A stretch of 34,598 nucleotides of DNA from assembly GCA_023299815.1 (NCBI GenBank), contig JALZWA010000302.1, forward strand, positions 1 to 34,598. The letters are read 5' to 3'. Every line of letters begins with the position of its first letter. Position 1 is the stretch's first letter. The notes under the pieces are model-generated. The model was given only the letters and a program-made list of their open reading frames with translations, searched no databases and was not told where the DNA came from. Position numbers and translations under genes: made by a program. Source of the stretch: Akkermansiaceae bacterium (GTDB taxonomy: Bacteria > Verrucomicrobiota > Verrucomicrobiia > Verrucomicrobiales > Akkermansiaceae). Shown here piece after piece: positions 15,134 through 25,405 of the stretch.

Positions 15134-15164
15134 AAAAAGGTGCCTTCCCGTGAGGAAAGGCACC
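15134..15164 (-). terminator. Rho-independent terminator after the OPX gene
   Basis: On the minus strand GGTGCCTTTCC...GGAAGGCACC followed by TTTTT; lies between the OPX stop (15190) and prc. Confidence 0.8.
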
Positions 15165-15189
15165 CAAAATTGAACAAAAGAAGGGAGAT

Positions 15190-15744
15190 CTACTTTCCGG
15201 CCCAATTCTTTTGAGGAACCTCGATGATGTCTCCGGGCTTCACTTGAATACCCTTCGCTTTGTCTTCCTTCAGATTGTAATTGAAGACTTTGCCAGATCG
15301 GAAAAGCTTCACTCGGGTAAGCGCACCAAAAGGAGTTCCTCCCCCTGCTGCTTGAATCGCTCCATACAAAGTCATTCCATTCATCCATGGTCTGGCTCCA
15401 GCTGATTGGACCTGTCCGCCAACCGTAAAGGTCTTAGCCGCGACGTTGGTGTCCGTTGGAACAATCACTGAAAAGCTCGAATTGGTGTAAATTCCAGCAC
15501 TTCGGTAAGCTGCTGAGATCGACTGCGCAAGCTGATCAGGAGTTCTGCCCGCAGCTCGCACGCTACCAATGATCCACATCCTAATCGTCCCATCTCCAGA
15601 AACCTGGTAAGTATTATTGAGACGGCTCTGCTCACTGGCAGGAAGCCCTGTTACAGAGATCGTCAAGGTTTGGTTCACTGAAATTTGCGCTCCAGCAAAC
15701 GTAATCGATAGGAATCCAATAAGGAGGGTAAGTAATTTTTTCAT
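15190..15744 (-). CDS. Short polysaccharide export (OPX/Wza-like) protein: Poly_export plus one SLBB domain
   Basis: About 185 aa from MKKLLTLL; signal peptide; YQVSGDGTIRMWIIGSVRAAGRTPDQLAQSISAAYRSAGIYTNSSFSVIV and FTVGGQVQSAGARPWMNGMTLYGAIQAAGGGTPFGALTRVKLFRSGK are typical of Wza-like proteins. Confidence 0.9.
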   Translation of the reverse strand: MKKLLTLLIGFLSITFAGAQISVNQTLTISVTGLPASEQSRLNNTYQVSGDGTIRMWIIGSVRAAGRTPDQLAQSISAAYRSAGIYTNSSFSVIVPTDTNVAAKTFTVGGQVQSAGARPWMNGMTLYGAIQAAGGGTPFGALTRVKLFRSGKVFNYNLKEDKAKGIQVKPGDIIEVPQKNWAGK

Positions 15745-15767
15745 ATTTTTGGGGTTCAAGACTAATT

Positions 15768-17933
15768 TTAGTAGAGATCGTCTTTCGATCCTGCAGGATT
15801 ATTCGATCCTGCAGTAGAAGAATGATCGATTGGAGCAGAAGTCGCTGGCGCGGCATTCTCATCCATCGCACTCGGTGCGTAGTAGGTGTAGTAACTCGTG
15901 TAATACTGATATTGACTGTCACTGCGGACATCCACGTTATTCAAGACAACGCCAATAACCTGTCCACCCACATTCTCCACCGCCTGCTTCACGCGAAGAA
16001 GCATGTTACGAGGAAGCTTACGATGCTGAACAACAACCATAGTCAGATCAACCTCACTTGCGAGCACGGCCGCATCACTCACTCCAAGAATTGGAGGTGA
16101 GTCTACCAATACAAGATCGAAACGCTGCTTCACGTCCTGCAATAGCTCTGACATCCGTCGAGAGTTCAAGATCCCGGCCGCATCAGCAGGAAGAATTCCT
16201 GAGGGCAGGAAGTAGAGATTGTCTACAGGTGTCTGAAGAATCACATCCTCAAGGGCCAAATCTGTGGTCAAATAGTTCGTCAATCCAACAGAATTATTAA
16301 TATCGAAGAAGGTGTGCAGTCGTGGGCGACGAAGGTCAGCATCGACCATCAGAGTCGTGTAACCTCCCTGAGCACAAACATAAGCAAGGTTGACCAAGGT
16401 CGTTGATTTACCTTCACCCGCTCCTCCTGAAACCACCGTAATGGAGTTGTCTTCAGGATTCTTGCGGTTGAATTCGATGTTCGTTCTAAGAATTCGATAA
16501 GCCTCAGCATCAGGGCTCATTCCGCTTTGCTTGTGAAGAACACCAACATCCTTGGGAATCACAGCGAGAACTGGGACCTGCAAATATCGCTCTACATCTT
16601 CAAGGCTCTTCACCGAGGTATCCAAGTGTTCAAGCAAGAACGCGATACCAACTCCAAAAATCAAGCCAACACCTGCACCGAGAACTAAATTCAGGGTGAC
16701 ATTAGGAAATACAGGATTTTTCGCTAAACGAGGAAGCTCATGAGCGGTAATAGGAGTCCTGGGCATTCTAAGGAGGACCCGCTGCTCCTGCTGCTGAATT
16801 TTCATCTGACGCAGCAGATCACGAGCCTGTTCATAGTCATCTTTCGCTGAATTATAATCGTGCTGCCGCATTGAAAGACTCACGGTGTCAGTTTTCTTCA
16901 CTTCAACAGTTTGCTCCATTCGCTCAACTTGCCGATCAATCAGGTTGATCCGTGTGTTCAAAACATCCTTCAACGAAGTCACAGCAGACCCAGCGTCTCT
17001 CATAAGATTTGACGCTCTTACCCTCAGTCCCTTCATTGTGGGGTGATTCGCTCCCAGTCCCTGAGCCGAGGCGTCATCCATTTCCCGGTTAGTCTGCAGA
17101 AATTGATCGTAAAAGACACTCACCTGATTTTCGGGAAGCTCCAAACCGGCAGCTGTCGGAATCATCTCCTCCGAACTCGTACTTACCAGCTTGTCGATCT
17201 GAATTTTCAAGCGATCACGATCCTGTTTCAGTTGCTCCAAGCGCTGTTGTGCATCCTGATACATTCTCTCTTCTGTTTGACCAACAGGACTCGAGCTACG
17301 TCCATCGAAGTAAGGAATACCATACTGCTGAATGAGAACAGTAAGCGCCTTCTGCTTATCGTTCACCACATCACCATGATTTTGGAGTTCGGTATCAAGA
17401 GCTTCAAGAGCCGACTCCGCACGTTGCATCTCAGTCCTATTTCGGCGAGTGATATAGGCATTCGTAATTTGCTGACAAATATCCTTGGCATCCTCTGCGT
17501 TGGCATGTCGAACTGATATTTCGATGAAATCGGTTCCTCTCTTCGGGCTAGCCCTCACAATTGAAGACAAAACTTGCAGCACTTCATCTTCATTCATATC
17601 CCATCGAGTAGTGAGATCTAAAGATTTTGCCGCCTCAGATACAGTTTGAGGAGCCGTAATCGTTTCGAACTCATTCTCAATGTAGTTCCTCGTCATTATA
17701 GATCCTGAATGACTTTGCGAACCACCTCCTGTTGGAGCAATGGCAAGCATCGAAGGATGCACCTGAACTACTGATGAACTCTGAAATTTCCGGGGCATTA
17801 CCGAAGTAATAACCGCAGCCGTCATGAAAACTAGTAGGAAGGTAAGAAGAATTACGCCATAGCGATTCTTGATAACCTGCCAGTAGTCTATGCTTCCGGC
17901 TGTGTCAGTTTGTTGTGGACCTGTAGATTGCAT
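15768..17933 (-). CDS. Wzc-like polysaccharide co-polymerase / bacterial tyrosine autokinase
   Basis: 721 aa; N-terminal Wzz domain, two TM helices, Walker A GGAGEGKSTT, A' LMVDADLRRPR, B LVLVDSPP, Tyr-rich C-terminal segment QYQYYTSYYTYY. Confidence 0.93.
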   Translation of the reverse strand: MQSTGPQQTDTAGSIDYWQVIKNRYGVILLTFLLVFMTAAVITSVMPRKFQSSSVVQVHPSMLAIAPTGGGSQSHSGSIMTRNYIENEFETITAPQTVSEAAKSLDLTTRWDMNEDEVLQVLSSIVRASPKRGTDFIEISVRHANAEDAKDICQQITNAYITRRNRTEMQRAESALEALDTELQNHGDVVNDKQKALTVLIQQYGIPYFDGRSSSPVGQTEERMYQDAQQRLEQLKQDRDRLKIQIDKLVSTSSEEMIPTAAGLELPENQVSVFYDQFLQTNREMDDASAQGLGANHPTMKGLRVRASNLMRDAGSAVTSLKDVLNTRINLIDRQVERMEQTVEVKKTDTVSLSMRQHDYNSAKDDYEQARDLLRQMKIQQQEQRVLLRMPRTPITAHELPRLAKNPVFPNVTLNLVLGAGVGLIFGVGIAFLLEHLDTSVKSLEDVERYLQVPVLAVIPKDVGVLHKQSGMSPDAEAYRILRTNIEFNRKNPEDNSITVVSGGAGEGKSTTLVNLAYVCAQGGYTTLMVDADLRRPRLHTFFDINNSVGLTNYLTTDLALEDVILQTPVDNLYFLPSGILPADAAGILNSRRMSELLQDVKQRFDLVLVDSPPILGVSDAAVLASEVDLTMVVVQHRKLPRNMLLRVKQAVENVGGQVIGVVLNNVDVRSDSQYQYYTSYYTYYAPSAMDENAAPATSAPIDHSSTAGSNNPAGSKDDLY

Positions 17934-17984
17934 TGAAGAGTGGTATTGGGTTTTACAGAAGATCTTGATGCTAGCCTAGACACA

Positions 17985-18025
17985 AGCAAAAAAGAACTCC
18001 CACAATGTAAAGACATTGTGGGAGT
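17985..18025 (-). terminator. Rho-independent terminator between the beta-barrel gene and wzc-like gene
   Basis: Perfect 12-bp inverted repeat ACTCCCACAATG (17996-18007) / CATTGTGGGAGT (18014-18025), 6-nt loop; on the minus strand followed by TTCTTTTTTG. Confidence 0.88.
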
Positions 18026-18052
18026 GAATTTGTTCAGATTTTTCTGAAATTT

Positions 18053-19282
18053 TTAGAAGGTCGCACGAACCCCAAGAGAGAAACGATTACGATCGTATTC
18101 TCTGTCGTCGATATCAGAACCAAGATCTTCGAAGTTGTAGGTTCCGTTAAGGTAAACATTTTCAGCGATACGGAGATCAAAGCCGACATAAGCATTGAAA
18201 AGGTCTTCGTCGACGTCAGAGACACCAACACCACCATCTTCGTAACTCAGGAATTGGTAATTGATTCCACCCTGTAACGAGAGTGCTTGAGAAACTCTGT
18301 AGTCAGCAGTCACTCCCACACGAAGGGTGTTTGAGTTGTCATAAACGTTACCACCGATCTGACGAGAGTAATCCTCACCGGAGTAGCGAACGTAGGAATT
18401 GAGTGAGAGTTGCTCGCTAACTTGTGACCTAAGAGCTGCCTCAACATTAGGGCTTGTCTCAGATCCACTGTTAGAGTTGTCAACGCTGCGGAATTGTGCT
18501 CCTGCACGCAGGATACCAACAGTGTTTGGACTGAAGCGGTGCTCAATACCAGCAAGGACAAAATGGTTTTGGCTGTCACCAATTCCACCAGCCGTGTTAC
18601 GATCAGAGTAACGATACGTCAAAGTTGCAACGGTCTGAGGAGACAGCTGGTAACGGAAGTCGTTATAGAATGTAATCGCCGAGACATCATTTGAGTTGAC
18701 GCTGTTATTGTCATAATTAACACCGTCAAAAATGATACCTGTGTATGTTCCAAGACGTTCAGTCCAACGGTAACCAACAGCATTATCACTGCTCCAGCGA
18801 GTGTATGCACCGACCTGACGAGCAGAAGTAGTTCCGACCGAATAGTTTGGCTCATATTCGAAACCAACCGAGTTACGACTGGAGAATCGGAGACGCTCGC
18901 TAATACGACGGGTCCAGTTAACTCGAAGGCTTCCGGTAGGAGTATCCTGATCTACTTCTGTGTCAGGATTCCCAATTCCATTACTGATGTCGAGATCATC
19001 GAGGTAGTAAACATATCCGACCTGAGCTGAAAACTCGAGACGGTCCTGAGGTGACTCACTTAAGAATGAAGCACCAACGTATGCATTAACGTAGGCTGTT
19101 CCGTTATCGTCCCCGTTCCCGATGGGAGTCGGGTTATCATCATAACCGATGGTAGCACCAACGGTCCATGTAAGAGGAATTGATTCTGAGGCCTCCTCAG
19201 CAGGGGCCAGATCAAAGAGTGTTTGAGCGCAGAGGCTGCTCGCAGAGAGCAGGCCGAGAGCGGTAATCGTAATTTTTTTCAT
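18053..19282 (-). CDS. Outer-membrane beta-barrel protein (polysaccharide-export associated)
   Basis: 409 aa; signal peptide; alternating amphipathic strands throughout; C-terminal RNRFSLGVRATF ends in aromatic F, typical of OMPs. Confidence 0.85.
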   Translation of the reverse strand: MKKITITALGLLSASSLCAQTLFDLAPAEEASESIPLTWTVGATIGYDDNPTPIGNGDDNGTAYVNAYVGASFLSESPQDRLEFSAQVGYVYYLDDLDISNGIGNPDTEVDQDTPTGSLRVNWTRRISERLRFSSRNSVGFEYEPNYSVGTTSARQVGAYTRWSSDNAVGYRWTERLGTYTGIIFDGVNYDNNSVNSNDVSAITFYNDFRYQLSPQTVATLTYRYSDRNTAGGIGDSQNHFVLAGIEHRFSPNTVGILRAGAQFRSVDNSNSGSETSPNVEAALRSQVSEQLSLNSYVRYSGEDYSRQIGGNVYDNSNTLRVGVTADYRVSQALSLQGGINYQFLSYEDGGVGVSDVDEDLFNAYVGFDLRIAENVYLNGTYNFEDLGSDIDDREYDRNRFSLGVRATF

Positions 19283-19340
19283 TAAGCTAATTGTTATCGT
19301 GTTTCAGACGTTATTATTTTATTAGGCTAAAATCCGAGAC

Positions 19341-19922
19341 CTAGTTAACAGGAGTCACTGACTGAGGAGTGCTAACTGGTGCGGATGTGAGAGGAAGACC
19401 GGCAGGAAGAAGAGGGAATCCACCTGGGCTACCTGGACGAGGGCCAACTGGATTCTCCGTGCCACCACCTGGGAAATCCAGAGGATTGGCGCTCGCTACG
19501 GGTGGGACAACGTCGCTACCTTTAGCAAGACCGCCTTTTTCAGAGTAGCCTTCGCCACCGGCAAAATCATACTTTTCAAGAACCGCTTGAACATTCGCTC
19601 CAGCATCAGGCGCGATTGCGATTGCGCACTGCGCAATAATTCTAAGCATTGAGGGAGCCTCGTTAATTGCCGCATCGACGATCTGAGCGACCATCTCTTT
19701 TTCAGCATTGGACGCGACAATGGCAGCCTTAACAACCTCGCATGCGCAAGATTCGTTAGCGGCGATTTGAGCAGCGACGATCTCAAGGACCTTCGAAGAG
19801 TCAGCGGCGACCGCTGACTTTACAGTATTGCTCAACTTGACGCAATCGATCGTGTCAGCTTGAGCGAGGGGAGCAGCTGCGAAGAGCAGTGCTGTCAGCG
19901 CGAATTTCAGCGTGTTTTTCAT
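19341..19922 (-). CDS. Hypothetical secreted Cys-containing protein with Pro/Gly-rich C-terminus
   Basis: 193 aa; signal peptide MKNTLKFALTALLFAAAPLAQA; Cys residues in IDCVKL, ESCACEV, AQCAIA; low-complexity tail PGGGTENPVGPRPGSPGGFPLLPAG. Confidence 0.75.
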   Translation of the reverse strand: MKNTLKFALTALLFAAAPLAQADTIDCVKLSNTVKSAVAADSSKVLEIVAAQIAANESCACEVVKAAIVASNAEKEMVAQIVDAAINEAPSMLRIIAQCAIAIAPDAGANVQAVLEKYDFAGGEGYSEKGGLAKGSDVVPPVASANPLDFPGGGTENPVGPRPGSPGGFPLLPAGLPLTSAPVSTPQSVTPVN

Positions 19923-24809: not shown

Positions 24810-24892
24810 CCATAGAAGTTTTATTAACTTTCTCTTTATTTTTTAAAAAAGGCATTGATTATTAACTTTTGTTAGCTATTGTGCGTTCGTCT

Positions 24893-25405
24893 ATGAACGT
24901 TCACATTTCTACCTTCGCCCTCCTCGCTGCGACCTCCTTCAGCGCATCTGCATTTTCAGTCGATTTTACAGACCTCCTCGGCCAGACCATTCAAAATCCA
25001 ACGACCGCGAATGGAAACCCTGATCGCTTTGATCTAAACGTTCCCGGATATGGCTCCGTGACCATCTTAGCAAATCTTGGAGAAACTCTGACCGTAGGAC
25101 AATCGTTCTCAAACGACACCACATCGATCACCGCTCTCGAATTCAATGACGCCGATGCCGTCACCGTGCGGTTCAACGGCTTTCAAGCGATCAATGTCGA
25201 TTTTGACTTCGTCGGAGTAAGCTTTGGAGACGACTTTGATCTCAGTTTGGTCGGCGGCACTGACGATTTCCTCGTCGAGTTCGAAACCACCATCTCCGCT
25301 GGTTCTGCAGGCCTTCGCGAGATTAGCTTTGATGCCGTGCCTGAGCCATCTACCGCTCTTCTTGGTGGACTAAGCCTGCTCAGCCTACTTCGCCGCCGCC
25401 GCTAA
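24893..25405 (+). CDS. PEP-CTERM sorting-domain protein
   Basis: Start at MNVHISTFALL (signal peptide); C-terminus AVPEPSTALLGGLSLLSLLRRRR is a PEP-CTERM signal. Confidence 0.9.
   Translation: MNVHISTFALLAATSFSASAFSVDFTDLLGQTIQNPTTANGNPDRFDLNVPGYGSVTILANLGETLTVGQSFSNDTTSITALEFNDADAVTVRFNGFQAINVDFDFVGVSFGDDFDLSLVGGTDDFLVEFETTISAGSAGLREISFDAVPEPSTALLGGLSLLSLLRRRR

Follow-up and report, generated by a model that had tools for sequence, protein, structure and literature searches.

A conserved polysaccharide-export cassette of Akkermansiaceae that probably couples a short OPX protein to a dedicated outer-membrane beta-barrel

The window analysed here is a stretch of 34,598 nucleotides from an Akkermansiaceae bacterium (GenBank assembly GCA_023299815.1, contig JALZWA010000302.1). 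Its minus strand encodes, from 19922 to 15190, a cassette of four genes in the order p193 (a secreted protein of 193 aa), outer-membrane beta-barrel, bacterial tyrosine kinase (BY-kinase) and outer-membrane polysaccharide export (OPX) protein. These are the four genes, at the coordinates, that a first-pass annotation made from the sequence had described. The cassette probably provides the export part of an exopolysaccharide pathway of the Wzx/Wzy type that uses a composite outer-membrane translocon. This reading is built on gene content, domains, synteny, the number of parts per genome and orthology to an Akkermansia-type locus, all observed directly; complex formation, the function of the barrel as a pore and the pairing with a synthesis locus linked to prs are what we infer from them.

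The OPX protein is 184 aa long from its ATG, or 189 aa from an upstream TTG start, and possesses a Sec-type signal peptide. The Pfam search placed Poly_export at residues 20-95 (48.9 bits, cut-off 28) and one SLBB domain at 104-176, after which 8 residues remain. The sequence contains no cysteine and therefore no lipobox. The first-pass annotation had described a protein of about 185 aa with these two domains, no lipobox and no room for a C-terminal helix spanning the outer membrane, and on all these points the searches agree. It had also called the protein unusually short, which does not hold, as short OPX proteins are common: PMC9601211 counts 453 that have a coupled barrel and do not exceed 280 aa. 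The OPX profile matches PslD and Wza in the PDB. According to the scheme of Schwabe et al. 2022, the protein has a Poly_export match above the Pfam cut-off, a length within 280 aa and a D1D2 architecture, and in that of Saidi et al. 2022 it fits class 3, with Poly_export-SLBB only and neither a Wza_C nor a GfcC domain. Membership in class 1 (Wza) was ruled out, since there are no residues for a C-terminal alpha-helical membrane domain; the same domain coverage speaks against an OPX protein with a helical barrel in the outer membrane, which the first-pass annotation had named as a result that would refute its proposal.

The barrel matches the Pfam families OMP_b-brl and BBP2_2, both over cut-off, and ends in Phe. 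An AlphaFold2 model based on 23 orthologues has 18 strands and a mean pLDDT of 82, and a sequence search of the PDB with the barrel profile hit nothing better than weak and partial similarity to other barrels. With 18 strands and a position two genes from the OPX gene, it lies within the limits of Schwabe et al. 2022 for coupled barrels, which are at least 16 strands and a distance of at most five genes. This barrel would supply the outer-membrane pore.

The kinase scores 174.6 bits with TIGR01007 (cut-off 108). It has Walker A, A' and B motifs at 503, 531 and 609, a C-terminal tyrosine cluster at 675-685, and two transmembrane segments at about 23-48 and 408-426, which together are the features of BY-kinases of the PCP-2a (Wzc) type. 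About 360 residues lie between the two segments. Its profile matches in the PDB are CapB, Wzc, Etk and VpsO. The Wzz profile used by Schwabe et al. 2022 is weak on this protein (17.9 bits vs 25.5), while an Akkermansia-type orthologue passes it with 29.3 bits. As a co-polymerase adjacent to the OPX gene, the kinase is also the polysaccharide gene that Schwabe et al. 2022 look for within five genes of an OPX gene.

The cassette is strongly conserved. We read 80 named kinase loci from Akkermansiaceae metagenome-assembled genomes, Roseibacillus, Luteolibacter, Haloferula and others; these are the best kinase matches and hence biased to orthologues. Where enough DNA was available beside the orthologous kinases, the barrel was present in 76 of 76 loci, the OPX gene in 79 of 79 and p193 in 68 of 71. 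The order p193-barrel-kinase-OPX is shared by Akkermansiaceae and other families of the order, usually with the protease gene next. A phylum-wide search with the barrel found matches in 90 of 195 genomes, and among 40 barrel loci read, drawn from the better-scoring matches, 39 adjoin a BY-kinase and 34 also carry an OPX gene. Synteny in both sets excludes chance, and the possibility of a generic porin lacking conserved co-occurrence, which the first-pass annotation had named as fatal to its proposal, is contradicted by the 76 kinase loci and by the 39 barrel loci. The last two genes are swapped (barrel-OPX-kinase in place of barrel-kinase-OPX) in L269, L273, L280, L282 and L283, which come from some of the more distant members of the phylum. 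One relative, G009, encodes, besides its regular cassette OPX protein, an open frame of 460 aa in which OPX-like repeats stand in tandem (L060:5746-7128).

In line with the first annotation, no genes for the synthesis of a polymer were detected in the window; a scan of 20 of its other open reading frames returned no domain of a glycosyltransferase, Wzx or Wzy. In twelve relatives (G003, G007, G012, G016, G018, G019, G024, G025, G030, G031, G033 and G035) we found exactly one OPX protein, one BY-kinase over cut-off and one Bac_transf initiating transferase each. In all twelve the OPX protein and the kinase are those of the cassette and the transferase lies elsewhere, in 10 of them beside Wzy. 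This distribution makes it probable that a Wzx/Wzy pathway has been split, the cassette being its export half. In G028, a genome of the same family that is 99% complete, the OPX protein, transferase, Wzy and over-cut-off kinase were all not found, as expected if these parts were lost together.

In the window's genus, a locus linked to prs encodes an initiating transferase (TIGR03025 above cut-off, Bac_transf), Wzy_C, an exosortase, an EpsI-like protein (DUF3485) and glycosyltransferases; no kinase, OPX or barrel gene was found in the stretches of it that were read. The distance to the cassette is about 21 kb in G014, G016, G019, G023 and G025. A flippase (PF01943) was detected there in some genomes by the genome search and is the weakest part of the locus, as the match in L238 reached 52 bits in that search and hmmscan gave none. 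Judging from the counts and the complementary parts, the polymer of the prs-linked locus is most likely the best candidate substrate of the cassette in this genus. The polymer had at first been left unassigned; that synthesis genes are missing from the window stands, and a best candidate outside it can now be named. In the own genome the Wzy copy breaks off with contig C110, and this may explain the orphan look of the cassette. CysD-, CysN- and CysC-like genes lie inside the synthesis locus in L238 and L239 (prs-linked loci of G002 and G004), and as a guess the CysN/CysD-like genes might indicate a sulfated polymer.

The window's own genome, with an assembly completeness of 88.6%, harbours two BY-kinases over cut-off and three OPX proteins, namely that of the cassette, one of 353 aa on contig C34 and an orphan of 184 aa on contig C151. 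The C34 protein contains Poly_export and three SLBB domains, ending at 348. It belongs to a self-contained second exopolysaccharide locus (L034, L081) with exosortase, kinase, OPX, glycosyltransferase and ABC transporter genes, which also holds a secreted barrel-like protein of 485 aa. The orphan (C151:10345-10899, L035) is about 35% identical to the OPX protein of the window; its contig has no kinase or barrel gene, and its neighbours resemble ExbB/ExbD and TPR genes. A full-length Wza elsewhere that serves the cassette kinase, a further result that would have spoken against the initial proposal, was thus not found: the C34 protein has its own kinase and barrel-like neighbour, the C151 protein is an orphan of 184 aa, and the twelve relatives have no OPX protein besides that of the cassette.

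A composite OPX/beta-barrel translocon has been proposed for EpsY/EpsX of Myxococcus xanthus, and also for ExoA/ExoB and WzaB/WzpB (PMC9601211, PMC9603273); EpsX and EpsY interact and stabilise each other (PMC9601211). By analogy, the cassette would join this known kind of exporter. Similar to EpsY/EpsX, it encodes a D1D2 OPX protein lacking a membrane span, a coupled barrel of 18 strands and a Wzc-like co-polymerase. In contrast to that system, the OPX protein of the window is not a lipoprotein, p193 is added, the genes run barrel-kinase-OPX and a terminator follows the barrel, and the synthesis genes are at a separate locus. The co-polymerase kinase and the OPX domains D1 and D2 are shared with Wza-Wzc of Escherichia coli, whose Wza crosses the membrane via its own alpha-helical barrel, which the OPX protein of the window cannot do. 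In Vibrio, unlike in the window, the synthesis genes are clustered with the VpsN/VpsM export genes. Vibrio cholerae VpsN/VpsM with VpsO is likewise a couple of short OPX protein and barrel accompanied by a BY-kinase (PMC9601211), and VpsO is among the profile matches of the cassette kinase. Verrucomicrobia are unnamed in the main text of PMC9601211 and PMC9603273, and one figure pools the PVC phyla. In the proposed mechanism, a polymer made at the inner membrane would be passed to the BY-kinase/co-polymerase, in which cycles of phosphorylation at the tyrosine cluster would govern chain length as well as assembly. The D1D2 OPX protein would form a ring in the periplasm that caps the co-polymerase, and the hole in the outer membrane would be formed by the 18-stranded barrel and not by the OPX protein.

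In one genus of the family, four genomes that are complete or nearly so (G077, G080, G083 and G089) possess the barrel-kinase-OPX genes, with a secreted protein of about 224 aa encoded ahead of them. Identity between the window and this Akkermansia-type locus is 41% for the kinase, 32% for the OPX protein and 29% for the barrel. The genus is presumably Akkermansia and the locus presumably Amuc_1411-1414, because the kinase of L246 has 735 aa like Amuc_1413, with a G tract at codon 71, and barrel residue 134 is Gln, which match the published values; the published Amuc_1413 frameshift spares the first 72 residues (PMC13055324). Similar to the window, Amuc_1411-1414 has the order secreted protein, barrel, BY-kinase and short OPX protein. 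The first genes differ, as homology between p193 and the 224-aa protein was not supported (hhalign probability 0.2; one short match in the tail, E 0.014), and the phase-variable G tract of the Akkermansia kinase is absent from the kinase gene of the window. In A. muciniphila, mucin binding is lost in strains with a frameshift in Amuc_1413, and poorer colonisation has been reported for a transposon mutant (PMC13055324). The genes amuc_1411-1414 have been termed a separate predicted exopolysaccharide locus (PMC13343947).

Several observations weigh against the cassette being a composite exporter fed by the prs-linked locus. In 6 of the 40 barrel loci read elsewhere in the phylum there is no OPX match nearby, and another gene, for example one for a substrate-binding-like protein, succeeds the kinase. 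In the window's own assembly, a search for an initiating transferase found none; presumably it falls in an assembly gap, as the genome's Wzy is truncated where contig C110 ends. Other points concern the barrel, which might be an Occ/OprD-type uptake channel and a chance neighbour of polysaccharide genes, with the OPX protein and kinase using another pore. The nearest Foldseek matches of the window barrel are the Occ channels OccAB4 and OccK, which outrank AlgE and BcsC, so that the fold alone does not choose between uptake and export. Amuc_1412 has been read as a Porin D/OpdK-like porin for the uptake of small molecules, and its substitution Q134P showed no phenotype (PMC13055324). In addition, a conserved terminator divides the barrel from the kinase and would set it apart as a unit of its own. 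This hairpin recurs in 24 of 27 relatives, and 10 of its 14 consensus pairs stay paired via changes on both sides; such conservation suggests that p193 and the barrel are transcribed largely separately from the kinase and OPX genes, or that read-through sets their ratio. Nevertheless, we consider an uptake channel unlikely. As fold similarity does not decide, it is the linkage to the co-polymerase, in every kinase locus with enough DNA and nearly every barrel locus read, that argues for an export pore; the twelve relatives have no second OPX protein able to span the membrane, so something else must; and export barrels of the EpsX type have 18 strands as well (PMC9601211).

The substrate may also be wider than proposed, if the cassette accepts precursor from any synthesis locus that happens to be active, and exports or tunes several polymers. 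The Akkermansia-type genome G080 retains the cassette, and no transferase or Wzy was found in it beside prs or in the about 195 kb read around the cassette, which means that the proposed partner locus is not universal; in addition, the cassette stays at one position, away from the synthesis genes, which vary. However, the twelve relatives have one transferase for one set of OPX protein and kinase, and second synthesis loci such as that on C34 come with a kinase and an OPX protein of their own, which makes a shared exporter rather unlikely. Even in G080, exosortase and EpsI genes still adjoin prs, about 68 kb from the cassette. Together with their presence at the prs-linked locus and with a 178-aa PEP-CTERM protein in the window (24869-25405), likely an exosortase substrate, this would agree with a polymer needed for exosortase-dependent PEP-CTERM anchoring, the main output being the display of surface proteins. 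The XrtA/PEP-CTERM exopolysaccharide system (TIGR03027, TIGR03018) also resembles the cassette in its short OPX protein, tyrosine autokinase and an exosortase elsewhere in the genome. Membership in that system was rejected, as the OPX protein (52.1 vs 180) and the kinase (128.5 vs 230.65) score far under the equivalog cut-offs, and we regard surface display as the main output as very unlikely.

The features of the cassette are listed in Table 1. The intergenic gaps are 58 bp (p193/barrel), 119 bp (barrel/kinase) and 23 bp (kinase/OPX). A 5.8S rRNA match in Rfam over the end of the barrel gene and the barrel/kinase gap was under the gathering score and was set aside. In the AlphaFold2 model of p193, the six-helix domain covers residues 27-118 with helices of about 14 residues each and a pLDDT of about 95, the tail being low; its four cysteines are at 27, 59, 61 and 99. 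No Pfam or NCBIfam family was found for p193, and the fold search returned no relative in the PDB (nothing below E 0.9). In the phylum-wide reading it was found in Verrucomicrobiales only, and it would be a secreted companion specific to this order and encoded together with the barrel.

Table 1. Positions of the cassette genes and associated hairpins in the window.
Feature	Position	Strand	Description
p193	19341..19922	-	193 aa; signal peptide, six-helix domain, disordered Pro/Gly-rich tail
Outer-membrane beta-barrel	18053..19282	-	409 aa; Pfam families, 18 strands in AlphaFold2
Intrinsic-terminator-like hairpin, barrel/kinase gap	17996..18025	-	13 pairs and T-run; conserved, covarying
Wzc-type polysaccharide co-polymerase / BY-kinase	15768..17933	-	721 aa; TIGR01007, Walker motifs
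Short OPX protein	15190..15744	-	184 aa; Poly_export (D1) and one SLBB (D2)
Terminator-like hairpin 3' of the OPX gene, closing the cassette	15138..15165	-	12 pairs, 7 of them G-C, and T-run

Upstream of the cassette lie a tRNA-Gly gene, a NIF3-family gene and a divergent lpxC, and downstream the tail-specific protease gene and a YggS-type gene. In most relatives the OPX gene and the S41 tail-specific protease gene are separated by a gene for a secreted protein of about 230-280 aa with a PDZ domain (for example L041:4092-4823 and L045:10330-11100), and this protein may work with the protease. It is missing in the window genome and in G006.

Outer-membrane polysaccharide exporters of the third type have been shown in Myxococcus; to these the cassette would add a single locus that is conserved throughout Verrucomicrobiota, and a candidate synthesis locus can now be offered for an exporter that looks like an orphan within the window. 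It also ties the composite exporter to a locus of a gut commensal that has been reported as necessary for mucin binding. A wider reading, possible and at this point tentative, is that of a module found throughout Verrucomicrobiota with a dedicated exit barrel, the new secreted p193, a fixed locus and transcription split by a terminator, in which Amuc_1412 might be the exit pore for the mucin-binding polymer. That Amuc_1412 would be an export pore and not an uptake porin is a directly testable proposal.

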